Assembly (NCBI RefSeq): GCF_001522545.3
Contig: NC_031774.1
Location: 16,492,296 to 16,556,295 of the forward strand
Source: Parus major
Lineage: Eukaryota > Chordata > Aves > Passeriformes > Paridae
Reading direction: 5' to 3'
Length of the DNA: 64,000 nucleotides
The position numbers and the translations under genes were made by a program. Shown piece after piece: positions 29,501 to 63,244 of this stretch; position 1 is the first letter of the stretch; each line of letters begins with the position of its first letter. The notes under the pieces are model-generated. The model did not search any database, was not told the origin of the DNA, and was given only the letters and a program-made list of their open reading frames with translations.

Positions 29501-32500
29501 CAACAATTAAGTCTGTGTTAAACTTTTACCTGGTTACCTAGTGGTAATTCCATCTACCATTATCTATATGCTAAAGGATGGTGATGAAAGGATGGTTAGG
29601 AAATAATGCTACCATCTAGTCCTTGAAGTATCCTGCAGTGTCCTTAGAGAACGTCCTTACTAAGAGGCACCACATCCATGTTCGTTCCATTTTGATTTTC
29701 CCACTTCAGTTAAGAGCGTTTATGTCTTCCATGCACATTCTCCTCTTAAACCAATTATCAAACCTTTATTTCAGTAAAAGTGTTAACATACTTTTCCAAG
29801 TGCACCACTGTGGAGAACTCAGCAGCAATAAAAATACCCCCCCCAGCAAGTTGTTTTAGAAAGATCAGGTGACAATGGTCTATCCCAAAGACTCAACGAA
29901 ACACATGAAATGAGGTTACCATGAGATCTTTGAAATTTTTATAAAATGAAAGTATTCACAAGTGTTCCAGTTTTAGAAGAAAAATGCACCATAAATAGGT
30001 TTGGCCATATGTTGCAGTACTGATTTTAGAATCTTGCAAAAACAACACGGAGCAGTGCAGCTTCCAGTTCATCGCAAGACCATTGCTTTTCCTGAAGGGA
30101 AGAGCTACATATGAACATTACCCTTTCTGTGTTACATTCTCTCCATACCTCAAATCAGGAAATAAAAGGGTATCCACTAAATCAGGCATGACTGACTGCT
30201 AGGTAGTCAGGGTAGCAAAATTCTAATATATACTACTGACTAAAAGGCTATAAGCTCCTTCTCCGCAGCACTCTGGGCCCAAAACTGATCTGTCACATCA
30301 AGTGTGTATTCCTTAATATGGGCAAGTTCACCCAGAACAGCACTCAGAACAGCATACACTAAAGCTTCAGTAAGACATCCCTTACTCACTGCCCTAAAAA
30401 ACTCTAAGTTGCCTTTTTATTTTATATTCAGCTGCGTATTACATAAATCTGAAGTTGAAAAAGAATCTTAATAGTAGAGAGGTTGCTCCTTCTTCCTTCT
30501 CATGAACTGATACAGAGGCGTATTAGATTTGCCAGGTCACATGAACCTACAGCTCTCATGGATTTCACACTACATTCAGCAACCAGATAAAAACCAAGGA
30601 AACCTTACCACTACTAAACTTACAGTTAGTGAAGGAATGAGGACTGCCATCTCTGTGTGAAGACAAGTAACAGTGTAACACGTAACAACAGAAAGCATAC
30701 TGGCCCACTGAAGTACACAATGCCGAAAGGTTATGCCTACAGGCTGCAACTATGCATTTTGGGGGTTGCCTTCTATTTCGACCCTAAAATATTCTTCTAT
30801 TTAATCTTATTTCAACTGAGATAAATTTAAGCAAACCACTGCTATTTTAATGCAGACAATGATACCTTTCTAATTTGGGTTTTTAGGTACCTGTTGATTC
30901 TTTTTTTCCACTGGCACAGACAGTGCATCAGCTGCCAACAAAAAGCTTCACCTTAAAGCTATCTTTATGTTGTGCAAAGAGGAGTCATCTTCAGGTCCAT
31001 ATTACAGAAGCCAATATATGTCACATTTTACTTCAATACAGGAAGCAGCACTACTGAAGATACCAATGGCAGTGAAATCCTGCTATACTGGATCCTGTCA
31101 ACATCCTCTGACAACAGCCAGCTCTGCAGAAAGCTGCCTGAAGACGTATTTTCTTCAAGCCACTTTTAGAGCTTGCTACCATAAGGCTCTTTTCCTGCAG
31201 AGTCAGCAAACAAATGTAGGGAATTTCGCTCTCCTAGACATTAGAACTATTATCAGAAGAACCAGAGTGAAACATCCAGTGGGAAGTATTTTTTTTTTTT
31301 CCTTCTCTGGAAGCAATATGGCCAGAGGAAAGAGAAGATACTCAACCATGTCTGCCCAGCTGCTGTGACCTTCAAACTATGGCATACGTAGCAATGGAAT
31401 ATTCTGCATAAATATTTTCAGCTATACTATTTTCCCAATAAAATGGCACTCAAGAGCAGAAGCTTCTTCCTATTCCACCATGGCAGGGAGATGCAGATCA
31501 AAGACACCTCTCCTTAGGAAAGGCAAGGAAAAAAACACAAAAACAAAACACAGGAAAACACAGTGATAGCTTTAGTTTTCTAGTATTTTTTCAGCTGCTT
31601 AGAAGTGTTTCTACTAACTCTTAAGATTTGATTTTAATTGGTCATCTACATGAGATCCAGAAGGAAAAAAAATAATGAGTGACTAAACCAGTGGGGTTTT
31701 ACATAACCTAGCAACAGAAACAACTCCAACTCCTGACAAGCCAGCTGTTCCAGGGGACTGATGAAAGGAATTGTGATGCTCAATACCATTAATAGATATT
31801 ATTACGTTTCACTAAATAAGCTGAATCCATTTTAGTCAGTCTAGCTCTAGCGGCCAAGCTCTACATAATTGTGGACTTACTATGGTATTGAGTATCATTA
31901 ATACCACTAGTTGCTTCTCTGAGATTCAGATACACCAAAAGACATCAGAAAGTAATTTTCACATGAACTTTACCACAAGTGAAGACATCTCAACCAGTCT
32001 CCAATACAGAATTCCCAGCAGGCTAAGAGGCTGATCTGCAGCTGCCTGTCAGTATACAACCCATCAGCAATATACAAAAGTCAGAAGTATTAAATCTAAT
32101 CTCTTATATTCTCAAATGACTGGTGTTGGCTTTGTGATACCAGAAGGGAAGAGGGAGTACAGAATGCTGCAACCAAACTGCTTAAAGAAGAACATAAGTG
32201 GATGAAAATATGTATACTTTGAACAACATCAGCTTTCACAACAAGCTATTTGTCAGAGTTTGGAAATTCCTTTTTTAGGTTTAGGACCCAGCTATTTAAA
32301 ACATTATATCCTTCCAAGATACCAGTATTTTAAGAGCTCATATTAGCAAGTTCCTTGGACCTCAGGGCATTTGAAGAATTTTTCATAGAAGCTATGCCAC
32401 GCAATCAAGCACAAAACGTATCACCATCCTACTAAGAAGCAACTTCCTTCTCCACCATGTGGTATCAAAGAAAAATAGTGTAAAATTGGTACCTGAAACA

Positions 32501-35500
32501 CCTTTTCTGAAGACAGAAAAAAATGCTACACTGAGTGCTTTCAAAAGCTCCTGTTCCTTGTAGACGGAACTGAAGGCTGTGTGACTGTTCTCAGGCAAGC
32601 TTATAAACTAGGCCAAGTTAAAGTTACTACAGTTCTTCTCCAAAGTCTTAGCAGTTTCCAGCAAAAACAGAATATTAGGGATTTTAAAAATTTTTGTTAT
32701 TTAATTATCTGAGCAATTTGAAAAAAGAGCACTTCAGTCAAAGGTCTCACAATAGTTGTCTAACTCCAGCTGAGTTTTGAAGATGTCTGTGACTCAGATT
32801 TTTATTGAAATTTTAACTATTCCTCTCCCTTCCATGTTGCATTTACAAAGAGTTCTGAAGGTTCTATTTTAAACACTAATAACAAGCCTCATTGCTTAAG
32901 TATGTGCCAAAATAGTACAGCTTCCCCCAGTCCCAAGCAAACATCTGAACAAGAGCAGAAGGAAATGTCACATGTTCTGTTATCTTTATTGCAATACACA
33001 ATCATTTCTTTTAACTCAGCTCATTTACAAATGCTTTCAGGAACATTTGCAAGTGCTGCAAATCAAGTCAGCAGAAACAGGAAGGATTCACAATACATGT
33101 CAGCAGGTTTTGAGCCGAGTGGACATTTCAAAGTCTACTTGCTTTCCCTGAAAAATTTATGAGTTATTTTGCTAAGAAAGAAACTATTAACAGTTGATTA
33201 ACAATGAGCATTATTAAGAAATAATTACTACTTCCAAAATTTCTGTGTATCACCTCCCTAGCATTTCAACACAGAAATTGGTCTTCATTGCTCATACATA
33301 TTTTTCACACAGCCCTGTGAAAAGAAAGAAATAAGGCAAGAAAGTATTCTAAGACCCTTTGGTTCTCAGGCAGCAGCTTCCAGCTGTATTTTGGAACGTA
33401 AGTTAAAAAGTAGTACCTGCTTTTCAATCTAACTCAGTGTACCTAAAAACTAGTGTGCTGCACTGTTACTCAGCCTGCTTACTAGCGAGAGGGTCAGGAA
33501 AGCAGTTTAGTCCTTGGGATGTTCTCTGGGGGTAGATAAGGAAGTCTGACAAGTCTAATCTCACTAGCTTTCACATGGCTGACTGCTACCTTAGTATCTT
33601 AGCTTTTAAAACCACAGTAATGGCTTTTGCAAAACAGAACGGACAACACTGTTTCTTTGCTTCCTTCCTACACTGACCTCTGTTCATGCAGTTGGCAGCA
33701 ATCCAGGGATATACTGTATCAGAAGGCCACTACTACATTAGAGGCCAAGAAAAAAGAATTTGATTTTTATGCACATTTTATACACTTTGAGACATGATCT
33801 GGATTTCTGTAGGAGTGACAGCCCAAGACCTCTACATCAAACACTGAGTACCTGGGACAAACAACCCATACAAATCCATACACTAGTATTTATTTTGAGA
33901 TTTGCTCAAATATGGAAAATCAAGTCAGCAGAAGGAAAAAAAAAAAAAAATAAAATAAACCACAGCTATTTACAACAAAGTACAACATTGGGGCACTTCT
34001 GCCCAAGCTGAAAAGAAGATACACAAGCATGTCTGAAATCTAGCAGCCACTCTTGAAACACAAACCCTACTAAGCAATCAGAACAAAACTAAATTCTAAG
34101 GCCAGAGCAGGAAAAAAAAAAAAAAGTCTGGATCAAGCAGAGAACACAGCTCCTCTGAGCATGGAAACAGCGTACAGATTTGTGGGCAACTTCAGGAATA
34201 CACAAATTCTCGTTTGAGAGATCAAAGTGATACAACAATTTAATAAACCTGATATTTTTTCACTCCCAGAACAGCTACTGCTTTGACACTGAGACTTCCA
34301 ATTTGGTTCAAGCATAGGAGCAAAATCAGCTTACAGTCTGAACATGTAAAACAAAAGCTATAGCATCTCTGCACACTTTACTCCTACAACTTCTCCTTTA
34401 TCATACTGGTGTCGTTTCTCTCTACTACATTCTTCTTATCTCAGTTAATGCAGAAGCATTTAAAGCAACTGTCAAGGACACAGTGACCTCAGCAATGGAG
34501 CTTCCTCATGCTTATACAAGAGACATGGTCACCTTAAGTACAGAGATTCTAAATTCCTGCTGAGCTTGCTGTACAAAAGCTGGATCAGAACCCAAAGCCA
34601 TAGCACAAGTTCCATCAGTTCACAGAAAGTACTGCTTGTCCAGAGATGTGAAACCTTATCCCAGCCTTGTTAAATACAAGGGTATTTTAAACACCAAGTT
34701 ACCCAAACATAAAGCAGGTATCAGGCTTGACAGGTATTTGCAGGAGGTTCTGTCTGCAGCAGTGTAAGAATACACCTTGCAAGCTACATGGGATGGGTGT
34801 CTACATACTGCAACAGCATGTGCTGAAGCACACAATGGCCCAGAGGTAGACCAGACTCCTACACTAGTGTCAAGCAAGAACTTCTGACAAGAGGTCTTGT
34901 TTCTTGGAGCTTTCCCTGATTACAGCCATGCAGCCAGTCCAAAAGCTGCATCTTTGGCCAGGCAGGGCCAGTAACTCAGGGCACCAGTATTCATCACACT
35001 TATTTAGCAAAGGACATCATCTTAAATTCACAATCACACATTTGTCTTAATCCAAACTATTTAAAAACATTTTAAGGTCAGGGCTACGTGAAAAGAAACT
35101 GGGTTAAACTGAGTAATTGCCACTTAAAGGTCTCTTAATTTTTATATAGCCCTTCTGCAAGGAAGAACCACACAGCTTGAAGTCCATGTGAGACTCCTGC
35201 AGCAGAAAGATAACACAGCTATCAGCTCCTCACGCTCTCAAGGCCTCAAGCAGTTACACAAGTTGTCTAAACACAATTTTTTCCAAATTGTGACATTTAT
35301 GTTTTTGCTCAGGCTTCATCAAATTATTGTCTTCAGGCAATCAAAATTTTCCATCCAAAATCCATATAGATTTAGTAATAAACTATAATGAAGATCAGCT
35401 ACAAGAAGGTTTAGCCATCTTCCACTCAAGCTATTGAATGAGCATATACTGACCTTTATTCAAAGGTATTTAAATAGTGCTTAAAGGATGTTACACAAGG

Positions 35501-38500
35501 TATGCAGGCTAAAGTTATGAATGACACTTCTGAAAGCACCCCTATTCTCTGATCATCACCTGATCTATGGTTCTATATATCCAGAGAGTCCTATAATTTC
35601 TCCCCTGCTTCATGAGTAAGCAGAGAAGAATTAACTGTTTACGTACTTTTGCCTTTTTTTCTAAGAGAAAAGTATAAACACAGAGGCATGTGATGGCTTT
35701 TAATTTAGAAGAATGTCTTGAGTATCTTGCACTGTGGTTAACTTTTCCCTTCTAAGATGTTGATGACACTCAGGTTTCTAAAGGTCTTCATACACCTTTA
35801 AGAGAGATACCACTTAAAATGAAGCCACAGATCATACAAAGTCCAGGAAAATTATTTGTTAAAGCATCATGTATTCCAAACAGATATGCTATTCTAAGCC
35901 AGGATAGCCAATAAGGTAAACAAATTTACTACAAATCCAGCAGATTCTGAAGGCACATACATGATCTCCACATTGCAATGCCTTACCTAACTACACATAC
36001 TGCCCCATAACTATTTAAATGGAACTTGCCACAGCCACTGCTAACTCCATTTAAAAACATCCCAACTGCCCCTCAGAATCTTTAAACTTTGAAACCACGT
36101 ACACAACTTGAAACAGCTAACAGCATGTGTTTTACATTGTGTTGTTTAATATTAATTACTGCCTCTTGGAATTAGTTACTGCATATCCTTTGTTTCATAT
36201 GAATAATTTGTACTGCTGTGCTGTTGTTTGTGGTCAAGATGTATAGCTTCAGCAACTACACCTTTCAATCTTAATTCTGCTAGAAGACACCCTAACTCAT
36301 TACTTCCATAAAGGGCTCAGGGCTGAAGAGCAGGGAAGGAAGAAAAGTTCAAACAGGTGCTGTTTTACTAGAAATAATCATATCCACCCATATTCCTTCA
36401 ATCTATTCACAGTCACACAGTCTTCTGGAAACAGTCCGAGTAGTCACATGGTTAGGAGGCCAAGTGTTAGAAAGAGTTTGTGACCAGTAGCCCAATTCTT
36501 TGGTAGAAAAGAGAGTTTGATTCTGTTATGGCCAAGAATCACAGGACTGTCAGAAGGTTCTGTAGTTAAGAGAACATTTTCAACTGTTATTCCAACAGAT
36601 TGCTCTAGCGTTTTGCTTGAGTCAGCAGTTGACAAAAGAAGTCCAAGCATGTAAAAACAAAACTCCATAAAAGAAATGTCATATGGAAATATATATAGTG
36701 TAGTATGATCAAGTCACTTACCTTTAAATTTTGACCGAATATTTGCTAGTTCTTTATTTATCCTCTTTATCTCTGCCTCTTTACTTTTGCCTGAAATGAA
36801 AAGAAGAACATCTATCAGGACACAGTGATTTGGACATCCCTCTACCACCCAAAGCATCTTTTCACCCAAACAGAAATATACATTTGTGAACATACAAACA
36901 TCAGGAGGAGTTATTACTCTCCATTTCCATCACAGGAACTAAAGGCAAACAGAGGTAACTTAAGCATCACTTTATACAGGAATTTGAGAAGCTCTAAGGA
37001 CCTCCCTGTTTCAAGAAGCTTTGCAGACTTTAGATGGTGTCACTTGCACATAACCTGAGATGCCACTGTTACTGACTTTCACAAATGCTCCAGTTTTTCT
37101 GTTCCTGAAACTGCCCAGAGAAAAGTGAATTTTACTTCCTATGTGATTACTAAGTTGACAGTGCTTTGAAGGAGTGAATCTCATAAGCACAATCTTATAA
37201 ACATGTTATTCCTCACCTTAAGGACAAGCCAATTTATTGTTTCTCTCTTGAACGCTTATTCAGTTCAACAGCTTTAAAAACATTCTTAACAGACTGAAGA
37301 GGAAACGCAGACTCACAAGGAGTCCCAAGACTCAAGACCCCACACAGTTAGGATACAAGTGCAGACTTCCTATGTACCTCATGAAAGTCACTTGAAAACC
37401 CGAAATATTTAAAATTCACACTTTATTAGATGGTTTGGCAACCTTATGCTTCTCAGCACCATCAGTATTTCATATCAACTTTTGATTCCATGAATAGGTA
37501 TTGGAATTTCTAGTACCAATTCAAGTTACATAGAGAAACAGCTGTAGTTTGAATTCTGATAAAGCAAACTTATTCAAATAATATTTGCATTGTCCAAACC
37601 CAAATGGCTTATTACTCTTTAGTATTTTAGTTTTTGGTGACTGAGATTCTACAGACATCTGGGTCCATTGTCTCCTACATGTCTCCTACATGAGTAGGAG
37701 CACAGAAGGGCAAAACAGCCAGCTCCGGCATTGTGATCAGCTGCCTTTCATTTGAGGGAAGCAAGCGAAGTACATTTCAGCAATGCAGAACTGGCCATTT
37801 AGTTCTGTTGTTAACGCAGACCTGTACCTACTCAAACTTTCGACAAGTCTAAAACTTTTGTCCATTTTCCAAAAGCTTCAAGCAGTTTCAAGTGTTATAT
37901 GCATCAACTAGCAGCAGAAAATGACAGCTTCTTTCCCTCTTCATCACATATATTTTCTACAAGGTTATGAGTAAAAGTCTCCTACCCTTGGTTCAAAATG
38001 GTCCAACCGTATGAGTAGTGGGAATCACATGCCCTGTGTTCACACAACACATTTCCCCACACCACTGGGATCACAGCTACATCCATGAATGTGCAAGCAG
38101 GGGATGTGACAAGGCTTGAAGAGCAGATCATGACCAGCATTCCAAAGCACCTCCAACCCTTTCTTCAATAGAAACATCTCACAGTATTTAAATATCCCAC
38201 TACGTTTGCATGCCCAAAAGCCTGTCACCCTATGACTGTTAATCCGCCCTTAACAATTCCTTTGGGGATCTTACAGCAGGCCCTATGAAAGGTGACTAAG
38301 CAACTTAAGAAAACAAGTGCCTCAAGATAGTTGAAGAGCAAAGTATAAAGGAATATATATATATATATATATATAAAAGAATCCCTTGCCAAAATGAATC
38401 TAGATTTTGTAATTTCTTCACTTAGACTCAAATAAACTGAGGTTAAGCGCTTCTGAAACCAACTCTTGCATAAGCTGCAGAGAACGGGTTTGTATTAATC

Positions 38501-47500: not shown

Positions 47501-50347
47501 TGTCCAAAAAATAAATACTGATGTAAGGAGATCAAGCATTTCCAAAGGTAGACAGTCAAAATTTACATAAGTACCCCCAGAAGTTTAGGATACTTGAATT
47601 ATTTGAAATCATATGCTGTGCATCCACCTGAACACAGTCAGCACACAACAACTGCACTTTCATTTTTCAGCAGGATCTATAATGTAGAACCTTTATCTGT
47701 GCAGAGTCTTTCAGAATACCCCTCCATACACACCACGTTTCACCATTACTCATAATCTGGAAAGGCTATTGGCAAACTAAAAGCACCAGGCCTTTGTGTC
47801 AGTATTAAAAATAGATACAAGAGTCCAACAAAGCAAAAATTTGGACTGAAATTAAGAAAGCCAGCAGAACTTTACATGTCACTGCAACTACCAGATATTT
47901 AGTCCAATTTCAAGGCTAGAAATAGAGGTCAAGAGCTACACATGGTATCTAGCCTCCCTCCCTTCTCAGGAAAGGGACGCTTGCTTTCTTTGCTGAGTCA
48001 AATGATGCTGTTCACCTCAACAGCTGCTATTTTGTTTTTGACAACATCTAGCTCCTCACTGAAGAGGCAAAGAGGGAGCTTTAGCCAACAGGGCTGCCTG
48101 CAAAGCCCAGGGTCTCCAGAGAGTACTTTTGTGAATACCGCAGGAATTATTTTTCTGAATCTTACTCTATGTACACTAGCCCATGGGGTTAGCTGGCAGC
48201 ACTCAGATCCACTAAAGGCTCAAATGCCATTCACAGCTATTTGGAAGCTTCATACATCACCTGCTAGTGGGAACACCAGCTCTTGTGCAGCTGTGTAGAA
48301 GATGCTGGTATTTTTTCATTATGAAGACAAGAAAGATATACAAGTAATTACAGCTCCCAAACATCCGTCTGGACAGAGACAAAACATTAGAGAGATACCA
48401 CAGTTTTTTTAAAGAGTCGAAGTGTTAACATTTTATTTGTATCACCAGTAAGTTACAACTTTGTGTCTCCTGCAGATAAAGAGAGCATGAGAGGTTTGTT
48501 ATCCCATCTGGACCGAGGTAGCTTCAACTCTGTTCCCACACTGCCTACTAGGGAAATAAGACCTAATTTGTAAAATCCTACAACTTTAAATTTTGTAATT
48601 CCACATTGAACACAGCTTACAAAATTAAGATCCTGAATGTTTTTCTTGTATTTACTTTTAGTGAATTCCACTGAAAACAAGAGCAGACAAAGTTAAGCAA
48701 CCGCAAGACATAAGACACTGATGAATCAAATCATACTGCTTCTAGCTAAATCAACGAAAACAATGATTAAAAAAATAATTGTGAATTGTATTGGCTAGTC
48801 ATCAAGTCTTAACTGCTATGACACCAAGGGGAACTACGTTACACACGTAGCTTGCACAGAACATCAGGACACTGGAAAATGCTCACTAAACAGCAAGGCC
48901 AACAAGACAAAGCACAAGAGCATTTGCGTAATTTTGAGCTGCTACACTGCACATTTTATAAGCCATCTTCAACACACACCAAAGTGAAGTGTAAAGCAAC
49001 TTAAGGACCTGCAACTCTGTTTTGAGAAAGAAAAACCACCCCATTCAAACAGCTTCTGCTCTAAGGAAGATTATAAACCTTGAATTTTACATATAAAGCC
49101 CCTGTTCACATGTCTAGAAGTCCAAATTGCCTGATTTTAAAGACACTGTATTTAAATGGTCTCATTTTACCAGTATAATTATTTGCCAGGTTTTTTGTAT
49201 TACAAGCCATCAATATGAAGTTTTCCAAGCCAATGTAGTTAAATAATCCCAATGCAAGCCCAGTTAGAACAATATAATTTGCAATAAAAAATTATCCAAA
49301 TCTATTTATATCTTTAGAGAGAAGACCTTACCATTCCTCCATTGCTTTTAAAATAGCCTCAAGTGATCTACAGAGACACACAGGTGGACAAAATAGAGCT
49401 GTTTCATCACACCAGCCGCAGCGACCTTAGCCCTTCCCCAGGCAATTCCTGCCACATCACACACTTAGATCTCTAACTCTGATTAATATTAAACTATTGT
49501 ATGCAATTCTCGGACAAAAAGGAAGACTGAGCAGTGAGGTGTGCCCCCACACATACCCCTTCCCCCGAGACCAAGCAGCAGCAGATTTGTACTCCTCCTC
49601 TCCCGCTGCACACTCACAGACATACTCCCTCCCATGTCTTGGGGTGGGCACTTACTCGCACCCTCCTCCATCCCGTTCTTAATTACCCTGATCCAAAGCG
49701 CTGATTTCCGTCAAAGCAGAATCTTAAAGCCAATTTAAGCCAAGCCTAGGCATACGCACTGAGGGCCCTGCTCTCAGGCGCCTACAGAGGCCTGTTTTCC
49801 ATCAGTGACGTGATGAGCCGAGAGCCGCTCAGGGATCTGGAAGGAGCCCAGGGACGCCTCTCCCTGCCCCGCCGCACACCCACCCGCGCCCCGGCACCGC
49901 TCCGGCGCATCGCGAACAACGGCGGCACCGACCCCCGGCACCCCCTCCGCCGGGGCGGCCACCGCCACACTCAAGGACGGGGGAAGGGGATGACAGGGGT
50001 GGTGAAGGGGGAGGGAAACACCCCAAACCCACCCACCCAAAACGCACAAACCCATGGGCAAATGCTTCATGCTGCCCCCCCCTCCCCACCGCGCCGCCCC
50101 CCCCGAGCGCGTCGCCATTTCGTGAGACAGGAGCGCTCCGAGCTGCCCGCTGCGGGGATCAGGGGGAAGAGGGGAGCACCGGGGAGGGGATTGAGGGGTG
50201 AAGCCCCGGCCCCACGGGGCATCAGCCCATGGCGACGGCCGGCGCGGCCCAGCCCAGGCCCCGGCCCCGGCGCCACTCACAGTTGCGGATATCGGAGATG
50301 AAGACCGCCAGGCCTCGCATGCCATCGCCCTTCGACACCGCAGGCAT
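8483..50347 (-). CDS. AP2A2: AP-2 complex subunit alpha-2 (complete coding region, 22 exons)
   Basis: Alpha-2 large subunit of the AP-2 adaptor, which binds PtdIns(4,5)P2, cargo and clathrin at the plasma membrane during endocytosis. Exons read from 50347 down to 8483; lengths sum to 2814 bases, giving 937 residues plus TAA (human 939). Domains: HEAT-repeat trunk about 1-620; flexible hinge about 620-700, rich in Lys, Pro and Ala; appendage (ear) about 700-937. Conserved landmarks: Arg21, which lines the acidic dileucine pocket; the basic PIP2 cluster Lys55-Lys56-Lys57-Tyr58 and Lys61; and Trp839 in F-F-Q-R-W-K-Q-L-S, the DPF/W-binding Trp840 of mouse alpha-C. The start ATG at 50347 lies in a CpG island and gives the family N-terminus [12 protein letters not shown]2A2 rather than AP2A1 is supported by the [18 protein letters not shown] region and by synteny. 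Intron 17 is U12-type. Confidence 0.97.
9305..9439 (-). CDS. AP2A2: AP2A2 exon 21 (residues 868-912, ear)
   Basis: Acceptor tcacag, donor gtatct from 9304, phase 0. Encodes [14 protein letters not shown] through R-L-E-P-N-L-Q-A-Q; fully conserved with mammals. Confidence 0.97.
9990..10494 (+). mobile_element. ERVL-type solo LTR, degraded, antisense in AP2A2 intron 20
   Basis: The + strand follows the layout of a common avian ERVL-class LTR. A left part carries ggctggaatagagttaat, then a gttgctaacacagggatg block and a cactgagcaggggttacaca block. A U5-like right part carries caacccacacattttct, then ggctgtgtggtgcttagt and ggttaaaacatgac at its end. The middle looks shortened: the promoter/TATA segment expected in the family is not visible. 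No internal retroviral genes flank it, so it is a solo LTR. Its right end lies about 50 bases from the exon 20 donor. The left boundary is approximate and the family was named from memory. Confidence 0.75.
10544..10613 (-). CDS. AP2A2: AP2A2 exon 20 (residues 845-867, ear)
   Basis: Acceptor ttgcag, donor gtgggt from 10543, phase 0. Encodes [16 protein letters not shown] and ends I-T-K-A-K. Confidence 0.96.
10792..10908 (-). CDS. AP2A2: AP2A2 exon 19 (residues 806-843, ear)
   Basis: Acceptor tgcag, donor gtaaga from 10791. Encodes [11 protein letters not shown] through F-F-Q-R-W-K-Q-L-S. It includes Phe836 and Trp839, the platform-domain residues that bind DPF/W motifs of accessory proteins. 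Confidence 0.97.
11670..11793 (-). CDS. AP2A2: AP2A2 exon 18 (residues 765-804, ear)
   Basis: Encodes [15 protein letters not shown] through A-P-I-L-N-I-Q-F; donor gtaaaa from 11669. The 5' boundary at 11793 is inferred: it is the position that restores frame and family length after the U12-type intron, 12 bases past the branch-point A. Confidence 0.8.
11794..12589 (-). other. AP2A2 intron 17, U12-type (minor spliceosome)
   Basis: The 5' end reads ATATCCTTAA (12589-12580), matching the minor-spliceosome donor consensus. TTCCTTAAC at 11813-11805 matches the U12 branch-point consensus. The inferred last two bases are AT (11795-11794), giving AT...AT ends. Frame and length were checked: the exons on either side give DDLQ-S-S-LNLQTK where human has DDLQ-P-N-LNLQTK. 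Confidence 0.75.
12590..12679 (-). CDS. AP2A2: AP2A2 exon 17 (residues 735-763, ear)
   Basis: Acceptor ttccag before 12679. Encodes [12 protein letters not shown] through D-D-L-Q-S, then one base of a split codon. The donor is not GT but ATATCCTTAA, a U12-type 5' splice site. No GT donor nearby keeps frame with exon 18. Confidence 0.85.
13411..13493 (-). CDS. AP2A2: AP2A2 exon 16 (residues 707-733, ear)
   Basis: Acceptor cctag, donor gtaaga from 13410, phase 1. Encodes [13 protein letters not shown] through E-F-R-Q-N-L, the first strands of the appendage sandwich. Confidence 0.96.
16208..16371 (-). CDS. AP2A2: AP2A2 exon 15 (residues 652-705, hinge to ear)
   Basis: Acceptor cttag, donor gtaatt from 16207. 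Encodes [13 protein letters not shown], a Pro/Ala-rich linker, then L-L-V-D-V-F and D-D-N-F-A. This is the least conserved part of the protein and accounts for the two-residue difference from human. Confidence 0.95.
18280..18447 (-). CDS. AP2A2: AP2A2 exon 14 (residues 596-651, trunk end and hinge)
   Basis: Acceptor gtaag, donor gtgagt from 18279, phase 0. Encodes [13 protein letters not shown], then a lysine run (K-L-K-K-K-K-G-P) and the variable acidic/basic hinge. Confidence 0.96.
19250..19481 (-). CDS. AP2A2: AP2A2 exon 13 (residues 519-595)
   Basis: Acceptor ttaag before 19481, donor gtaggt from 19249, phase 0. Encodes [11 protein letters not shown] through [10 protein letters not shown], near the end of the trunk. 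It has Asn where human has His in the Q-F-H-L-L motif. Confidence 0.96.
19658..19755 (-). CDS. AP2A2: AP2A2 exon 12 (residues 486-517)
   Basis: Acceptor taacag, donor gtaaaa from 19657, leaving AG of a split Ser. Encodes [12 protein letters not shown] through I-A-G-D-P-R-S. Confidence 0.96.
20078..20260 (-). CDS. AP2A2: AP2A2 exon 11 (residues 425-485)
   Basis: Acceptor gctcag, donor gtgaga from 20077, phase 0. Encodes [11 protein letters not shown] through A-K-T-V-F-E in the C-terminal trunk. Confidence 0.97.
21486..21623 (-). CDS. AP2A2: AP2A2 exon 10 (residues 379-424)
   Basis: Acceptor tgcag, donor gtaagc from 21485, phase 0. Encodes [12 protein letters not shown] through Y-S-I-R-E-E-I. 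The two bird-specific-looking differences from human here are Gln in S-N-A-Q-Q and Asn in M-L-N-Y. Confidence 0.97.
22759..22927 (-). CDS. AP2A2: AP2A2 exon 9 (residues 323-378)
   Basis: Acceptor gtgcag, donor gtaaat from 22758, phase 0. Encodes [12 protein letters not shown] through V-I-N-A-L-K. Confidence 0.97.
23325..23475 (-). CDS. AP2A2: AP2A2 exon 8 (residues 273-321)
   Basis: Acceptor ctccag, donor gtgagc from 23324. Encodes (E)[11 protein letters not shown] through S-L-I-I-H-H-D and leaves AG for the next Ser codon. Confidence 0.96.
23965..24073 (-). CDS. AP2A2: AP2A2 exon 7 (residues 236-271)
   Basis: Acceptor tgcag, donor gtaatg from 23964, phase 1. Encodes [16 protein letters not shown] through Q-C-Y-P-P-P. 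Confidence 0.97.
25383..25484 (-). CDS. AP2A2: AP2A2 exon 6 (residues 202-235)
   Basis: Acceptor cctag, donor gtgagt from 25382, phase 0 at both ends. Encodes [12 protein letters not shown] onward to R-L-S-R. It was missed by simple open-frame listing and found by matching the family sequence. Confidence 0.96.
26479..26608 (-). CDS. AP2A2: AP2A2 exon 5 (residues 159-201)
   Basis: Acceptor ttgcag, donor gtaaat from 26478, phase 0. Encodes [12 protein letters not shown] and ends N-D-Q-H-L; trunk HEAT repeats. Confidence 0.97.
28546..28739 (-). CDS. AP2A2: AP2A2 exon 4 (residues 94-157)
   Basis: Acceptor ag at 28741-28740, donor gtaggt from 28545, phase 2. Trunk HEAT repeats; begins [12 protein letters not shown] and is nearly identical to mammalian AP2A2. 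Confidence 0.97.
28740..36721 (-). other. AP2A2 introns 3 and 2
   Basis: Introns lie at 28740-29337 and 29481-36721. Intron 2 (7.2 kb) holds several chance open frames, the longest 133 codons at 30967-31368 on +, and A-rich tracts near 33938 and 34115. None resembles a known protein or repeat. Confidence 0.65.
29338..29480 (-). CDS. AP2A2: AP2A2 exon 3 (residues 47-93)
   Basis: Acceptor tttcag, donor gtgagt from 29337, phase 0. It carries [10 protein letters not shown], whose lysines (55-57, 61) form the alpha-subunit PIP2 site in AP-2 structures. Confidence 0.97.
36722..36790 (-). CDS. AP2A2: AP2A2 exon 2 (residues 24-45)
   Basis: Acceptor ttcag before 36790, donor gtaagtg from 36721. It encodes [12 protein letters not shown] followed by [10 protein letters not shown], a basic first trunk helix. 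Confidence 0.96.
36791..50280 (-). other. AP2A2 intron 1 (13.5 kb)
   Basis: The long first intron, typical of a gene with a CpG-island promoter. It contains an (AT)n tract at about 38352-38375 and otherwise unremarkable AT-rich sequence until the CpG island starts near 49.8 kb. No alternative first exon or RNA gene is supportable. Confidence 0.65.
38352..38375. repeat. (AT)n microsatellite
   Basis: About 12 uninterrupted AT units in AP2A2 intron 1. Confidence 0.9.
50281..50347 (-). CDS. AP2A2: AP2A2 exon 1 (residues 1-22 and part of Cys23)
   Basis: ATG at 50347-50345; donor gtgagt begins at 50280, phase 1. It encodes the N-terminal stretch ending [12 protein letters not shown], including Arg21 of the dileucine-motif site. 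Confidence 0.96.
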
Positions 50348-50561
50348 CTTGGCGCACGACCACGGCCGCCCTGGGACGCGACACGCCGAACCCCCGCAGC
50401 CGCCGCCCGCTCTCCCCGCGGGCTGCTTCAGGCCGCTCCGCCGCCGCCGCCTCCGCAGCGCGCAGGCGCCGCCGGGGCTCCCGCGCCCCCGCAGCCGCCG
50501 GGCGGGCGCTGCTCGGGCGCCACCTGCCGTGCGGAGGCGGGAGTGCCGCGGGTGCGCGGGG

Positions 50562-50580
50562 AGATGTGTATAAGAGACAG
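50562..50580 (+). other. Tn5/Nextera mosaic-end sequence (probable adapter artefact)
   Basis: The bases AGATGTGTATAAGAGACAG are an exact 19/19 match to the hyperactive Tn5 mosaic end used in Nextera libraries. Translations across it give the peptides MCIRDR, MYKRQ, SLIHI and LLYTS, which I recognise as frequent adapter-derived contaminants of protein databases. The reverse-complement half of a mate-pair junction is absent, and the bases to its left do not match the Nextera read-specific adapter arms. Confidence 0.95.
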
Positions 50581-51576
50581 GTCCCCGCCTGTCCCCCGGG
50601 ATGTGCCCGGGGTTGTGCCCCTGTTCCCGGACATCCCCCGTGCGACCCTGAGGCCCAAAAGGGCTGGCTGGCTGGAGGGCGGGCTCCGGGGATCGGCCGT
50701 GCCGCTGCTGGGACGCGATTTCCAGCAAGTGCCCGTAGGGGCAAACGGGCCCGGGCCGAGGTGGCAGGGCGGCGTCAGCCGCTGTGTCCGTGGGTGAATT
50801 CACTGCACGCTCTCTGCTCGGGAGCAGCCTAATCCCTTCCTCTCCTCGTGACCCTAATGGCCGAGAAGTTTGATGATTTTTGAAGGTGAAACACCGGGCT
50901 CCGCAGGCGCCTCAGAGGATGTAACTGCTTAGGGAGGAGAGGGACGGCTGATCTAGATACTGGAAAATTGCACTTCATCGCTAAGCAGTGAGCAGACTAT
51001 TGACCTGCAATCTTATTTCCAAAATATGAAGGGCAAGGTAGAGTAGTATCGTCCATAAGAACATGCTTTCCACAGGGTGGACTGAAGAAGGCTGTGCCCT
51101 GGTCTTCCTCCTCAAAAGGGACCCCAAAAAAGTGCACGGGATCTACTGCCCCTGCTCTGCACGGCCCCTGTGAGCACTGAGAAGCCCGGAGGCTGCTGTG
51201 TGCAGCTGCATCCTTAGACACATCCCCCTTGTGAGCCTGCCATCGCTTGTGTGAGTGGCGTAGTTGCTCTGTGTTCATGTAGAGATTCCCACTCCTGACT
51301 CCCTGGGCACGCAGGTGTGCAAACCCAGGGCCACTTGTTCCTCCTGATGGCTGTAAACATGCAGAGTGACATAGTCCTACACCGCATCTACTCCTGAGAC
51401 TGGAACACATTTCAAGGTTAAACTGCCTTAAACATGGCAAAGAGGTGGGACTGTGTAGAGTATTTAATATCTTCAGCTGAAAATAGGTTCAAATGGTCTC
51501 AAAACTGGCCTAGACTCCCTAGCCAAAAGTATGCTGGGGGCTTTAGTCGTGATGTAAGGGATTACAGTGGAGAATA

Positions 51577-54255: not shown

Positions 54256-54605
54256 TCAGAATCACAGAAACAATTTGTTTCGAAAAGACCTCGGGGATCA
54301 TCGCATCCAACCTGTGATCAAACATCACTATGTCAACTAGACCACGGCTCTAAATTTTTCTTAGACACCTGGGACAGTGACTCCACCACCTACCTGGGCA
54401 GCCCCTCCCAATGTCTCATCACCCTCTCTGAAGGAATTCCTCCTCACATCCAACCTGAGCATTCCTGGCATAGCTTAAGGCCATTTCCTCTCCAGTTGCT
54501 GGCGGCCTGTGAGAAGACGCTGGTCCCAACCAGGCTACAGCCTATTTTCGAGCAATTGCAGTGAGCGATAAGGTCAGCCTTGAACCTCCTCCAGACTAGA
54601 CCTGG
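54256..54605 (-). mobile_element. CR1 LINE, 5'-truncated 3' end
   Basis: The + strand reads like the reverse complement of the avian CR1 3' region: tcagaatcacagaa at the left, then ggggatcatcgcatccaacc, gactccaccacctacctggg and cagcccctcccaatg. It goes on through aaggccatttcctct and gcgataaggtcagc to cctcctccag. About 350 bases, the usual size of a truncated insertion, so the LINE itself points to the minus strand. Confidence 0.88.
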
Positions 54606-54689
54606 AGCTGTATCAATTCGCTATAGCTTGGGCTAAACCAAGAGGCTCTTTATGGGCATTTAGAATCACACCATTATTAGCATTTCCCT

Positions 54690-55140
54690 TCTTCTGCTGC
54701 TGCTGAGCCCCAGAGCACCGCGCCCCGGCTCGGGCCGGACCATCCCAGGGGCGGCTGTCCGTGGGGCCCGGCGGGATGTGCCGCCACTGGGCCGGCCCAG
54801 AGCGCAGTGAGCCGCGGCCGCCGCCTCTCCCGCCCCGCCATGTTGGCGCAGCCGGCGCCCTGCCGGCGCTGCCCGGAGCCGGCGGGGCGGGGCGCTGCCG
54901 CCCTCCCGCACTTCCGCGGCGGCGGCCGGTACGTGCTGTCTGCGGCCCGCCAGGGCTGCGGAGCGACGGAGGAGAGGGGAAAGGGCGGCGGTGAGGCCGC
55001 GCTCCGGCGGGGCGGGGGCCCGGCCGTGCCGCGGTGGGGGTGACGCGGGGGCCGCCCCGCCGGGTCCGAGCTCGGGGGAGGCCGCGGCGGGGCTGGCGCT
55101 GAGGCGCTGATGGCACAGCAGCTGGCGAGCTTTGGTATCT
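54690..55140 (+). promoter_or_regulatory. CpG island / CHID1 promoter region
   Basis: GC-rich, CpG-dense block upstream of CHID1 with no TATA box. It contains a YY1-type element (cgccatgttggc, 54836-54847) and an ETS-type cacttccgcgg at 54909-54919, both common at housekeeping promoters. Transcription should proceed on + toward the coding exons. Confidence 0.7.
54800..54928 (+). other. Putative non-coding first exon of CHID1
   Basis: CHID1 needs a 5' UTR exon upstream because its start codon lies in an internal exon at 57965. Within the CpG island a donor gtacgt begins at 54929 and an alternative gtgagg begins at 54991. The start is only a guess near the YY1 element. Confidence 0.35.
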
Positions 55141-57880
55141 CGAGAGTCGGGCGAGTGTGGGAGGGAATTCTGAACGTCAAAGTGGAGCACGTTACAAGAG
55201 GGGAGGGTTTATTGTTTACACGGGTTAGAAACAGATTTGTCCTCACTCTTCACTCCCCAGTATAGCTTTTATTGCTTTCATTTAAAAACGCATCAGCGGT
55301 ATGCTCCCTGGGCTTCCTTCACGAAGTGATGCCGGCTCTTTCTGCAAGTGTAGTTAGAATCTAGTTTCTTCTTTATAAATACACTATAAACATTAACTCA
55401 GTGTTGTGTACCATCCATTTAATTTCTTTGCTTGCTTATTATGGACAGCCTAAATCTGTGGTAGCTTTACTCGCTTTTAAAAATGAAGACAAATTTAAAA
55501 CAGCTGACCAAAAGTATGTTACCTCATGTGTAGGCTGGGGTTAAGCAACATCTGTGACCTGGCTAAGAGAGAAAGAAACCTGGGCTTCAGATCAGTTTGT
55601 CAAATGATGTTTTAAGCTTTAAATTCTCCATAGTATCAGTTTGACAAGGACATAGACAGGCATTCGTCAATTCTATTTGCATTTTGCAGTGATGGAGGAG
55701 ATAAACAAAGAGTGCCAGGCTCAGGCAGTTCTACTGAGTTCAGCTAATTTGAGAAGTGTTAAAAATGGTGGAGGGTTCTTAGAAGAAAAGTTTGATGAGG
55801 GTTTAGTTTTGTAAACCTTGCAAAATGCATGCTTATGTTTTCCATAAAGACCATTTAAAGTTTGACCAGTTCATCTTCTGTGTTACAGTGATGCCATCTA
55901 CTTAAATTTTCATTGATGTTGTTAAAGAACAAGCTATTAAAATAAGCGTCCAACAAAGAGTTGATATGGACTGTCAGTAGCAGAAACCAATTTGCCACAG
56001 GCTCAGTGCTTCCCATAAATCTAGGAGTGGATGTTGACTTAACAATAATTGACAGGTGGGTACGATCCTGTCAAGGAAATGAGCACATTTTGATGTCTAA
56101 TTAGAGTTCTGTGATGGTTTTTTAAACTTCTGTTCTTCAGCTGTTAGATGTTATCTTCTTTTCAGGGAAGTGGACACTGTTGCTGATTGTTTCTGAAAGT
56201 GAAATCAAACACCTCCAAATCAATATATACGAGCTTCTGGGAGAATTGATATTCTGTCCAAATAGTTAAGACTTGTATTGACTGTTCAGGCTCTCAATTG
56301 TTCCTCTCTGCAATAGTTTATAGATCTTGCCAAGCTAGATGGAACATAGGAGATACTATCAAAAACAACCTGCTTTGTCTTATTTTTTAAAATGTGGAAA
56401 ACAAGGGGGTTACCAGTGACCTTGAAGTCAAAGTAGAAGCATAAGACCTTAATTATTCATAATAGTGAATTTCAAGCGGTATAGCAATTTAGCTTCTGCA
56501 ACACTCTCTGGATCCAAGAAATATTAGAAGGCTTTATTCCTTTTATTTTACAGCTTCTAAAAAACTTGACTAAAATCTTCAAATAATTTTGTACGTGAAG
56601 TTTTTGATGTTCTTTGGTGATACTGGCATTGTTTTTCAAGGACTTCTGCCATCATCCTTCAGCTTTGTTGCCTAATCACATAATCCTCTCTTTTCCTGCA
56701 GAATCCCTAAATACTACAATAAATACTTCTGGTTTTTAAAATCTCATTGCTAAGTCACATCCAAATACTAGTAAGTTTTTTGGTTTGTTGTTTTTATGTC
56801 TGTTTCATTGAGTACATTTCCACTGAAGCTTTAAGGTTCTTTCTGTCACAGTATTCAGAGCCTCAGTCTGGTGTTGTGGAATCCCTCACCTGATGTTTTG
56901 TACAAAAACAAAGTACTCAAACTTTGAGCAGCACTTGTTACCAGTGCCAGTAGAACAAGTATTGTAAATATGTGTAGAAATGAACTTGTAGGTCTTCAAA
57001 GTGAGTGGTAGAGTAATATAGAAAGCAAGATAGTTTTTTAAGTTCAACAAAAATTCAGAATACTGGAAAAAATCTTTTTTCTTCTCCATCAGGATCTCAT
57101 ATTTATGAGGAGCAGCTTGATACAGATCTAGAACCCTGATTCCCCAAATGCCAAATATTTTTTTCTGTGTTTTCTTATTCACTGCTGGGAGCTAGGCTGG
57201 GAAAGCAGTGTGACTTTTAAATGGGGAGACTTTGGAAAACAAGCTCTGACTGTATTTGAATTTTTTATTTCAAGTCTTCCTATAGATGCAAGGTGTGATA
57301 GATAAATAGAACTGTTGTCTACTAATTCTCTTTACCTGGTACTAGGACAAAATGTCCAAACTATTCTTCTAGACAAAAAGGACATTCCCCCCTCCCCTTC
57401 TTTTTTTTTCTTCAGTTTCTGTGCCAGTGACTTGGCAAGGAATTGAAACAGAACTTTCACCTATTACATTAAAGGCACATAGCTGTAAGCATATAGCTAT
57501 AACTCTTTATGTCTGTTAATTAATTTATGACACACTGACCAGGCTGGATAGACCAGAAACAAATGTTATCTCTTATTTGCTATAGAAGAGGTAAGGTGGT
57601 ATAATAATTATTCTGTGCAGCAGACATTTCTCTCAGTTTCAGCTGTAAACAGTTGTACTTCTTCAGGGGGATTCTTTAAAAAGGAAGCTACAAGAGTCCA
57701 ACCCACTTCATGTGATACAGCTGTTAAAACAAGGGACAAAAAAATATGTTGGAGTCTAGAAATAAGCTCTTACAGTGATCTGCTTTCGTTGCCAGAGCAA
57801 AAGCACTATTAGACCAGTACTACCTTAATAAGTCTGATTCTAAACAGGAGAAGATAAGAAAATGTCTTTACTTTTTTTAG
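54929..57880 (+). other. CHID1 intron 1 (5' UTR intron)
   Basis: AT-rich sequence after the CpG island. Two acceptors precede the start exon: tttttttag ending at 57880 and tgttcacag ending at 57922. No repeat family or RNA gene is recognised. Confidence 0.5.
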
Positions 57881-57964: not shown

Positions 57965-58090
57965 ATGGGGGAAAACACCATGAAGCTTCTCTGTGCTTCA
58001 CTTTCTCTTGCCATGATATTCTGGCTAGCTGAAGGTACTCTGTCAAAAACAGATGCAAAGAAAGGAGCTACAAAAAAACTGGAGGAAAAG
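57965..58090 (+). CDS. CHID1: CHID1 first coding exon (residues 1-42, signal peptide)
   Basis: ATG at 57965 with G at -3 and G at +4; donor gtaaag from 58091, phase 0. A second in-frame ATG at 57980 also has a good context (A at -3) and aligns exactly with the human start, giving T-L-S-K-T-D-A-K-K at the same distance. The first ATG would add M-G-E-N-T. Confidence 0.92.
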
Positions 58091-61000
58091 GTAAAGGAAA
58101 TAACTGAAATTCTTGTCTTATCTAACATGTGCAGTGAATTAATTGAACTTTGGTAAGTGGCCTCTACTTCTGTTAAAACAGTGTTAATGCATTTCTGCTG
58201 AAGCTTATATTCACAGATAAAACTTGAAACTGTCCTTTCCTTCAGCTTTTCTGTTGAAAGCTGAATGTTCATTTCTTGAAACGTATGATGTAGACTTCTG
58301 CATCTATATCCTGTATGCAAGTTGCAGATGCAGGAAGTTTTTGTCCCTTCAGGGAACACACTTCCATACGTTTGGAAACCAGGATGGGGAACAGTAGTTT
58401 GGGCCAAGAGCTCTAGATCATTTACTGGTAGAATGGAGCCTTGCCAATGGGAAGGCTGTATCCTGATGAAAGAGTTTGAAGAGCGTTCTAAGCAATAATT
58501 CTTTTGCAGGCAGAAATGATTCATAGTCCCACACAGAGCCAGCATGCTGAAGTGTCTCTTCACTTGCTGAGCATGTTGTTGTTTCCTGTCATTATGCATA
58601 TACATCTGTCAATGTTTGTATTACTTGCTCAACATCTACCAGGAAGCAAATCTCATCTGCAGATAGTGAGGGTAATATAAGGTGTTAAGTCAGGTCAAAT
58701 CCCTACATTCCTTACAATGAATCAATAGATGGCTTCTACATACCCACCATGCATGTCTTACTAGATCTTCTCATTCTGTTTTTATCTGCTAGGTCAGTTG
58801 AAGCACCTTCCCTAAAGAAGAGCGTTTAAAGTCTTGACCTTCAGTAACCACAATGCAGCATTCTCAGATTAAAATATATCCAGTTTAAAATTTGTCTTCA
58901 AATTCTTGGTTAAGAACTTCTGAGTAACATGACAGAAAGCATTGATTACAAAACAGAACACCATCATCTGTCATAAATTATGTTCTTTGCTCTTATAATA
59001 TCTTGGATTTGGGGTTTTTTTAATATGCTTTTTACTTTCCAAATAAACTAAGTTTACCGATGATGACCAGTCATTTCTGAGGACTTGTGTGTTTCAGTTC
59101 TAAATCAAAGTACTCTGCATCATTTAAAAGGAGTGCTCAGAGTTTAATGAAGTGATTTGTTTTGCTGTTGTTTTTAAAGTCTGTTGCCACTGAAAGTGGC
59201 CGTTTCATATAACTGCTTCTGATAACTGTCTTCTCTCCACAGAAGGTGCATTCTGATAAAAATGTTCAGGACCGGGGATTGGTGGTTGTGGATCCAAAAG
59301 CAAAGGATATTATACTGGAACATAAAAGTTATTGCTCCAAGAAGATGAAGGAACGACATTTCTCGGGAGATGTTCTGGGATATATTACTCCTGTAAGTTG
59401 ATACATTTAATAAAATTTGTGCTTTGAATGAATATGCAGCAGACTATGCTGAACTGCAACTTTGCATCCCTGCTATAAAAATATTTTTATAGTAATGGGG
59501 GCTGCTGGTTAAATACAGTCAAATAGCCAGACAAGTATTTGAGACTTGATTTGGGGTTCAGGTGGTCTCAAGCCCTTGTTCTCCCATCTGTCTCTTGGAG
59601 GCTGTTTAGGTTTTATTATTTTTCTTCTCCCTGGCATTGAGGAATACACTTAGAGCAGGTACTGGGTGTGCAGCTGGTGTGGGAGCTGCAGGTTGTGCCT
59701 GGGTGGGAGCTGTGACCTGGTGCTGACCCTCCAGACAGCAAAGAGCACAGGGACCTGTGGCACCGGCCAGGGAACCGGACACTTGGACACAGCAGGAGCC
59801 AAGGGTTCAACAGAAAGACTCCAGACTATCCCAGGCATGGAGGGCACAAAACCTGGGCATTCCTTTGTTGGGGGTCCGTCCCCAGCAGACTAGTTGGAGC
59901 TATTTCTGTTTTACTGCACCACAAATAAATTACTGTAAGGATCCAGACATCTGGGACTGTGCCATGGGAAACCCAGGGCTGAGCCAGTAAGGAAACCCTG
60001 TCTGAGCATGGGGTGTGCAGGGAGCCAAGAGGGACACCCCTGGAGTCACTGGAATTGCCCTCAGCAGTAAACGTTTGGAGTGGTGGGAGCGTGACTGCCA
60101 AGAGTGGTTTGCAGATGGTCAGACAGGGAGGCTTCCTTAACACTGGTTTTAACAGGGATGAGAGTATTTTCCTGTCAGTGGTGAGTCAGGTGAAGTTGCA
60201 GTGAAGTAACAATTGTATGCTGCTGTCAAACTGATGTCTTTTGCTATTCTGTCTCCTTCAAAGCATTCTTTCTTGAATGATAAATATTTCATCCTTTTTT
60301 TTTCAGAGGATAGTTTTCACTTGTTTTTGTCTTATACTGCTCAAAAGACAAATAGGTGCCCTATAAATTTTCACCTTTCTCAAGTTCTCTTGAACATAAA
60401 TTCAGAGTCTGTAGATTCAAAACTGTGTGGGAATCTACAAGCAACTTGCTTAGTTCAGTTGAATTAGCACAATTTGAAGATTGCCTTTAATGTAGCTGTT
60501 AGAGCTTCCAGAGTACTTTCTTATTTAAATTAAAGCAATATCCCATAAAGATATAAAGTTTCCTCAAATGAATGAAGAAGGATCTAGGAGATGATTATAC
60601 TTCTGTTAAAGAGTTTATATTGCTCAAAAGTGAAGTGAACTGCATATTTTGCTTCTGAGTCTCTCATGTTTTTTCTCTCCTTTGTTTTTCAAGTGGAACA
60701 ACCATGGCTATGACATTGCTAAAATTTTTGGGAACAAATTTACGCTAATCTCACCAGTTTGGTTACAAGTGAAAAGGAGAGGGAAGGAAAGGTTCCAGTT
60801 CACTGGGCTCCATGATGCTGATCAAGGTGTTATTTTCTTTTTCTTTGAATATCAATTGCAGTATTGTTGTGACTAGGTAGGTTTGGCATATTAGGTGGGT
60901 TTTGCTGGCTCTGCCTCATGGTGAAGTACCTTCATCCACTCCATATTTTGGGGTTTTCTTCAGAGTGAACGTCTTTCTGTCTTCATCTGCTTCCACATGT

Positions 61001-63244
61001 GTACATAGTTTATTTGTCAAAAAATGTAAGTAGCAAGGTTGGCTTTTCCACCATGCTATCCACAAAGCTCCTCTTAAAAGAGGAAAGGGCAAAGATCCTG
61101 TACAGTCTTGGTGTTGCATTGTGCAGCTATTTGCCTGTTGTGGGTTTTGTTTTATTTCTTAGCAAAAACCTTTAGGCAAATTTGTTTTAGAAAGGGAAGA
61201 TAAATTTAATTTGAAGAGAATTTTTTCCCTTCATTGTGAAGAAAGTGGCAGCAAATTTAAATTTCAGCTAGTATGTACTACTTCATGGTTTTGAAGTTAA
61301 TTGAATGTGAAATTTCTTTTGAAATAGCTATAATTCTAACCATGTTAGTGCCTACTAAAAAATTCATCCTAGTGCAATGACTGCCAAAAAGAGTGGATGG
61401 GACACTTTGAAGTACCATCTGAAAAAGTAAAACATTCCTCCCAGGTGATGCCTGGTGGCTGCAGAAGTGTTGTTCTAAGTAGGGAGTAGGGTAGTTTCCA
61501 TGATGAGGCAGAACTAAGCAGGAAGGGGCTGGGTGAGGAGTATTTTAAGGCTGTAGTGAATGCTGTGGTGCAGGTTCATGGCTTCAGATTCTGTGCATCA
61601 CGGGATGTTCTGTCTGGGTGAATTATGAACTGCTAGTCTGTGGCAGGAAGATATGTATAATGAAACTATGGTACGTCATTTGAAGAATGCTTGAAAATAC
61701 GTTGCCATTGTCAGCATCATTTATACTTTATCAGCTGTCTTACTTGATACTGTTTGACAGGCTGGATGAAAGATGTGAGAAAAACCTCCAAAAACATCAA
61801 AATAGGTGAGCCTCTGGTTTATTATGATTTTTTGCTTGCTTTTTATCTTCTTTAGCTGCTGGGAGAGAAAGGAAGGCTTTCTTCCAGGTCAGTATGGCAG
61901 GAGGGAAGATTACCTTAGCACAGCTGTATGGAGAAGATGTCTGAGAAGAAAAATTAAAGCAGTTAACTGTAGATAGTTAGGTAACTAAATGTTGACCTTC
62001 TTGATGCCTTTATATTTTGCCTTAGCTTCTTGTCTCTGAATAAATCCTGGGTTACAGTGCCCTCCCTGTAGGGATACTAGTATATAACACTGTGTACCTC
62101 CCTGGGGAAAGAAGTCTTCAAACTTGTTGCTTGGGGTTCTGTGTAGTTAAAAAGAAAAAAAAAAATAAATCCACATCTGAGTCAGTCAGACTTTCCTGCA
62201 TAATAGTAGAAAAGTCCTGTTTGTTTCTTCTCCCCTTGAAGCTGGGAACTCATGGGATGTGCTACAGTGTGTCTTTAGGGAAAATTGCAAATACTGCTGT
62301 AGAGATTCTGCTGTGCTAGACTTCTTTTATTTGTTTATAGCAAGAATTATATGGAACTGTGAAATGCTTCTTGATTCAGAAGGGAGTATGAAATTTGAAA
62401 TGTATTAGATAAATTGAATTCTCAGTCAGATATTTTAACATACTTCAGCTGCCAGAGGATAAAGCTTTTGAAATCACTCTATACTTTTCTAAAGCACTCT
62501 TTTACAACCATGGTAGTTAGAAGGGGCTTAGACACAGCTCCATAAAATCCATTGCCTTTTCCTTTGGGCATGATTGTTGACTCTTCCAACAGTAATTTTT
62601 CCCTATCTATGTTTTTAATGTTTTGTGTTTTTGGAAAAATAAATTACACAGGCTCAAATGCTTTCCAAAGGTAAAAATTTGTCTTAGGGCCTTGAGTTGA
62701 GTGGAGGAGTGAAGTGATATTGGGCTATGTATGGAGTAAATTAGAATTTGAGGTGAACTTTTGTACTTCATTACTGTGGTAGAAGAGATGCACAACTTAA
62801 AGATTGGTATCTTGTGTAATTGCTAGTTTAGTACTCTACTTGAGGCCCTAAGTGGTAGTTCAATTAAGAACGTTCAATCAAATGAAGGTATTTTCTCTTA
62901 AAACTTGTGTCAGTGCTGATCATTAACTAAACTTAAAATGAAGAAGAATGTTCAACGGTGTCAGTTTATCTATGCTGCTGAAGTTGGTCAGAGTGAAAAA
63001 GCAATTATCTCAGTTATGGGATATGATATTTACTGGCATCTCTGCTTGTATCTGCTGTATTCTGTTACTGCAGAAACATTCCCGTGTAGATAATAAATTC
63101 TTAATTTTCACTACTGATTGACTACTTTGCCTTATAGTGCCTCGAATTTTGTTTGATGGCTGGACTTACCAAGACTTTGAGAGTGTTTTTGGTAGTGAAG
63201 ATGAGATAGAGGAACTTTCCAAGAACATGGTTCTGCTAGCCAAG
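57965..63244 (+). CDS. CHID1: Chitinase domain-containing protein 1 (stabilin-1-interacting chitinase-like), 5' part
   Basis: Five coding exons (57965-58090, 59243-59392, 60694-60826, 61761-61805, 63138-63244) join in frame for 187 residues, roughly the first half of a 393-residue family protein. CHID1/SI-CLP is a secreted and lysosomal GH18-fold lectin-like protein that binds stabilin-1 and saccharides. Residues 1-24 form a hydrophobic signal peptide (M-K-L-L-C-A-S-L-S-L-A-M). The GH18-like domain begins near D-R-G-L-V-V-V-D and continues V-L-G-Y-I-T-P-W-N-N-H-G-Y-D and F-T-L-I-S-P-V-W-L-Q. The region equivalent to the GH18 catalytic motif lies downstream of the window. The gene is divergent from AP2A2, with the two start codons 7.6 kb apart. 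Identification rests on strong match to the mammalian protein and on synteny. Confidence 0.95.
59243..59392 (+). CDS. CHID1: CHID1 coding exon 2 (residues 43-92)
   Basis: Acceptor ctccacag ending at 59242, donor gtaagt from 59393, phase 0 both ends. Encodes K-V-H-S-D-K-N-V-Q-D-R-G-L through S-G-D-V-L-G-Y-I-T-P, the start of the chitinase-like barrel. Confidence 0.95.
59560..60160. mobile_element. Possible LTR-derived block in a CHID1 intron
   Basis: A stretch of GC-richer sequence unlike the AT-rich intron around it. It contains a TG...CA imperfect inverted repeat (tgttggggg ... tccccagca, 59866-59887), as found at retroviral LTR ends. An AATAAA follows near 59926-59931. I cannot name the family or fix the ends; other repeat types remain possible. 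Confidence 0.3.
60694..60826 (+). CDS. CHID1: CHID1 coding exon 3 (residues 93-136)
   Basis: Acceptor tttcaag ending at 60693, donor gtgtta from 60827, phase 1. Encodes W-N-N-H-G-Y-D-I-A-K-I-F-G through T-G-L-H-D-A-D-Q. Confidence 0.95.
60827..63137 (+). other. CHID1 introns after the third and fourth coding exons
   Basis: Introns lie at 60827-61760 and 61806-63137. Both are AT-rich, with an A-run near 62152-62164. No repeat family, exon or RNA gene was recognised. Confidence 0.6.
61761..61805 (+). CDS. CHID1: CHID1 coding exon 4 (residues 138-151)
   Basis: A 45-base micro-exon: acceptor tttgacag ending at 61760, donor gtgagc from 61806. Encodes (G)W-M-K-D-V-R-K-T-S-K-N-I-K-I, matching the human segment G-W-M-R-A-V-R-K-H-A-K-G-L-H-I. 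Too short for open-frame listing; found by frame and family match. Confidence 0.93.
63138..63244 (+). CDS. CHID1: CHID1 coding exon 5 (residues 153-187)
   Basis: Acceptor cttatag ending at 63137, donor gtaaaa from 63245, phase 0. Encodes P-R-I-L-F-D-G-W-T-Y-Q-D-F through D-E-I-E-E-L-S-K-N-M-V. Confidence 0.95.

Follow-up and report, generated by a model that had tools for sequence, protein, structure and literature searches.

We identify an exact copy of the Tn5 mosaic end (ME) in the GC-rich island 5′ of AP2A2 and interpret it, with a probability of about 0.96, as a residue of a Tn5/Nextera-type adapter that is foreign to the animal's genome. The sequence, AGATGTGTATAAGAGACAG, agrees with the ME at 19 of 19 letters. 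It occupies positions 50562–50580 on the plus strand of the window (the whole stretch of DNA that was analysed, 64 kb in length), its 5′-to-3′ direction is rightward, and it lies 215 bases from the AP2A2 start codon (ATG at 50345–50347, minus strand), as a preliminary description of this DNA had stated. That description had also regarded the 19-mer as adapter sequence embedded in the assembly and the local promoter sequence as suspect; both claims are supported by the same evidence, namely the exact match, the estimate of chance matches and the behaviour of the 19-mer in public contigs. At this locus the ME is most likely an artefact that marks a faulty join rather than biology. The site and its surroundings are laid out as follows.

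50562–50580, plus strand: ME, read as a Nextera-type transposase adapter residue (exact match)
50561–50562, no strand: probable false join of a left-hand sequence end to a right-hand piece that starts with the adapter (from the orientation of the ME)
50362–50561, no strand: left flank, island core of 83–88% GC on the 5′ side of AP2A2 (from composition)
50581–50880, no strand: right flank, where tagged genomic DNA would start (from the orientation of the ME)

The mosaic end and its surroundings

The ME is the sole match to this 19-mer with three or fewer mismatches on either strand of the 64-kb window, for which shuffled sequences give an expectation of 0.02. It sits inside an island with a GC content of 0.82 over 50400–50599, rising to 0.88 over the adjacent 100 bp left of the ME and standing at 0.73 over the adjacent 100 bp on the right. 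This setting supports the adapter reading: according to a comparison of bird assemblies, traditional NGS assemblies commonly under-represent GC-rich regions (PMC7757076). The data of that comparison included Nextera mate-pair libraries, and its locus was not this one (PMC7757076).

A changepoint test on GC content did not place a seam in composition at the ME itself. Over two ranges the best position was 50601, with log-likelihood gains of 4.9 and 3.9 (ME: 4.1 and 3.1); over the widest range it was 50795, with a gain of 22.3 (ME: 13.3). No run of N occurs anywhere in the 64-kb window; a gap that had been closed would show only in reads. When the exact 14-mers of 50301–51000 were sought throughout the window on either strand, the only repeat was one of 15 bases, rich in C and G, inside the island. 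The first 9 bases of the right flank outscore the reversed left flank as a Tn5 target, a result that is uninformative because the score ranks no higher than the top 26% among 9-mers of the island.

Read forward, the three frames through the ME give MCIRDR, DVYKRQ and RCV*ET; in reverse they give LSLIHI, CLLYTS and VSYTHL. Two of the adapter peptides named in the preliminary description, MCIRDR and SLIHI, are encoded here, and the third, MYKRQ, is not, the frame in question reading DVYKRQ. The preliminary description had called these peptides known from contaminated protein entries. A literature search found no paper naming MCIRDR as this adapter peptide, and the matches for the other three adapter peptides deal, by their titles and abstracts, with other subjects; this negative does not make the claim wrong.

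The same 19-mer in public contigs

Scans for the exact ME returned at least 119 stretches in genome_contigs and at least 120 in viral_contigs; because these figures are lower bounds, the stretches are samples, and non-random ones. As a control, the reversed 19-mer gave 1 match in viral_contigs, versus the at least 120 stretches for the ME. The authors of SKESA, who compared the most frequent suspect k-mers of 224 trimmed read sets with Illumina adapters, report that 204 of these k-mers were exactly this 19-mer (5/5 in one set and 199/219 in another); those data are microbial reads, different from this locus (PMC6172800).

The matches listed hold 260 ME copies in 239 loci. Among them, the 5′ side of the ME lies within 100 nt of the end of the locus in 246 of 260 copies and the 3′ side in 0 of 260, with distances measured on the fetched loci, whose ends may differ from contig ends. 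In the public copies examined, the ME thus marks the end of a sequence on its 5′ side, and the orientation of an embedded ME shows which side that is, a rule that provides a cheap screen of assemblies and a way to locate a faulty junction. Because of these counts, we place the break in the window at 50561/50562, probably to the left of the ME, towards AP2A2.

Listed copies preceded by 8 nt or more carry a Nextera tail there, at one mismatch or fewer, in 196 of 206 cases (97 R1 and 99 R2); a further 54 listed copies have less than 8 nt upstream. The 10 tailless copies among the 206 comprise 7 beside an N gap and those in loci L072, L038 and L180. Fourteen of the copies listed are internal, and in 9 of these 14 an N lies 5′ of the ME at a distance of 30 nt or less (8/12 in genome_contigs, 1/2 in viral_contigs). 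Just 1–4 letters separate the N from the ME in 7 of these 9; L063 is of this kind: four letters stand between an N run and the ME, and sequence follows. Among the other five internal copies listed, four have a tail (two in L040, plus L078 and L239), and one, in a Myxococcales MAG contig (L072:3073–3091, minus strand), has neither tail nor N; the sequence around this last copy appears to resemble coding sequence.

In actinomycete scaffolds with Doro1 in their titles, internal MEs at the very edge of N gaps are preceded by TCAG or CAG (L010:4346–4364, L042:6916–6934, L063:6001–6019 and L079:6305–6323). TCAG is the 454 key sequence, and these copies look like untrimmed 454-Nextera read starts.

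Gene order across the site

The ME is flanked by AP2A2 on the minus strand and CHID1 on the plus strand, divergent and collinear, one on each side.

50281–50347, minus strand: AP2A2 first coding exon, 22 aa, with a GTGAGT splice donor next to it (tblastn with the human protein)
18370–36788, minus strand: further AP2A2 exons, in order (tblastn)
57980–63244, plus strand: CHID1 coding exons, in order (tblastn with human CHID1)

The AP2A2 query consisted of the first 621 residues of the human protein, and the matches run down to 18370, where the query ended. The frame at 29236–29517 has a 52-residue match to solved chains of AP-2 alpha-2 (PDB). For CHID1, tblastn gave 5 collinear matches of 42–73% identity, three with E values no higher than 1e-10 and two weak ones (E 0.014 and 0.29); a few chance matches to the AP2A2 and CHID1 proteins arose elsewhere (E 1.9–7.4). 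AP2A2 exon 1 and the first CHID1 exon were identified by tblastn with human proteins. In the PDB, neither AP2A2 exon 1 (22 aa) nor the frame of 91 aa that contains the first CHID1 exon found a match, the queries perhaps being too short or lying outside the solved chains.

Human AP2A2 and CHID1 are likewise divergent neighbours. Because the two genes flank the ME in divergent and collinear order, misplacement at the kilobase scale is very unlikely; as judged from the sequence, the order on both sides of the ME looks right at that scale, and what stays possible is therefore a local fault. The preliminary description had warned that the sequence on one side might be misplaced or missing. The first part of this warning is very unlikely to hold at the kilobase scale, CHID1 being divergent and in place, and the second stands as a possibility: to the left of the ME the assembly may lack a very GC-rich portion of the AP2A2 promoter, with the left flank (50362–50561) the most likely place of any loss.

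The first coding exons of AP2A2 and CHID1 are about 7.6 kb apart, and between them lies a second GC-rich stretch (54600–55199, GC 0.62–0.82 in 200-bp windows), perhaps the CHID1 promoter island. Elsewhere in the window, 1721–1856 is a TA-rich tandem array with TG interruptions. A fragment of a bird-type CR1 element gave no match, a negative that does not decide the clade. A 239-codon open frame at 713–1429 on the plus strand, rich in Thr, Ser and Pro at its start, is possibly part of a mucin-type gene; human AP2A2 is adjoined by such a gene.

Origin of the join and alternative explanations

In the origin that we propose, the Tn5 transposase adapter would have been left over from a Nextera-type library, possibly a mate-pair one. 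A short-read contig or gap-filling read would start with the ME at 50562 and run right into genuine AP2A2–CHID1 intergenic sequence, and a scaffolding, gap-filling or chimeric-read step would then have abutted AP2A2 promoter sequence to the ME at 50561/50562, without Ns. We infer the library and the software step behind the join, for which gap filling is a plausible cause.

A second route to an artefact is unlikely but deserves some weight, and it overlaps with the first, since the artefact is the same: the ME could be the circle junction of a Nextera mate-pair library, or belong to an inverted chimeric read, with both flanks derived from one circularised or folded molecule. The head-to-head form of such a junction survives in public contigs, in 7 stretches of viral_contigs, and short inverted arms surround the ME in the window, 7 bases long if one ME letter is included and 6 otherwise; placed at random, the ME would have arms of 6 or more bases in 0.8% of cases, by a test picked after the arms had been seen. 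This route is opposed by the end of the inverted match after 7 bases, by the correct gene order on both sides and by the presence of a single ME. Two head-to-head MEs were not found at the site, where the best match to the 38-mer agrees at 26 of 38 letters (12 mismatches), and 19 of the 26 agreeing letters are the ME itself.

It is very improbable that the 19-mer is genuine, heritable AP2A2 promoter sequence that matches the synthetic ME by chance. Such an origin would fit the lack of a tail, an N or a sharp composition seam beside the ME, as well as the continuity of gene order across it, but base composition predicts only 8.6e-7 (about 9e-7) exact copies per 64-kb window, 2e-11 in 500 bp with the composition of the island and about 0.016 in a genome of window composition and an assumed size of 1.2 Gb. 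Moreover, the 19-mer has G or C at 7 of 19 letters amid flanks of 88% and 73% GC. By the composition estimate, the shuffles and the control 19-mer, chance does not explain the exact 19-base ME.

A remnant of a real engineered Tn5 insertion (a transgene, or a cloned fragment sequenced by transposon priming) is more improbable still: the orientation of the ME is that of an engineered Tn5 end facing right, but there is no second ME in 64 kb at three or fewer mismatches, neither a second inverted Tn5 end nor a 9-bp target duplication was found at the site within the 64-kb window (the two 9-base stretches that flank the ME agree at 3/9, which argues against a duplication), and 50581–51200 has no match, in near mode, in the plasmids collection, the sole collection searched.

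With the ME read as adapter residue, the proximal promoter of AP2A2 and its 5′ UTR carry a quality flag in this assembly and should be kept out of work on motifs, transcription start sites, CpG islands or conservation until checked.

Comparison with known Tn5-derived systems

The window site shares its identical 19-mer with the Nextera/Tn5 ME residues of public contigs, in which the ME points inward at the start of real sequence. Public internal copies in scaffolds often stand at gap edges, whereas the window copy is internal without an N run. It also differs in having no adapter tail of 14 or 15 nt: directly 5′ of the ME no Nextera tail was found, 5/14 and 8/15 letters matching. The window copy is untypical in this respect, because nearly all listed public copies with enough upstream sequence carry the tail, which is usual for adapter residue but not obligatory; 1 of the 14 internal public copies listed, that in L072, looks alike. 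An R2 tail hidden by errors was considered and set aside, as the agreement of 8/15 letters is unconvincing; 4% of island positions reach it.

Compared with the Nextera mate-pair junction adapter, the window has one ME half in common and lacks the second. The natural outside and inside ends of Tn5 are similar 19-base ends with 3 and 4 mismatches to the window site, and it is the mosaic form, which is synthetic, that the site reproduces in full.
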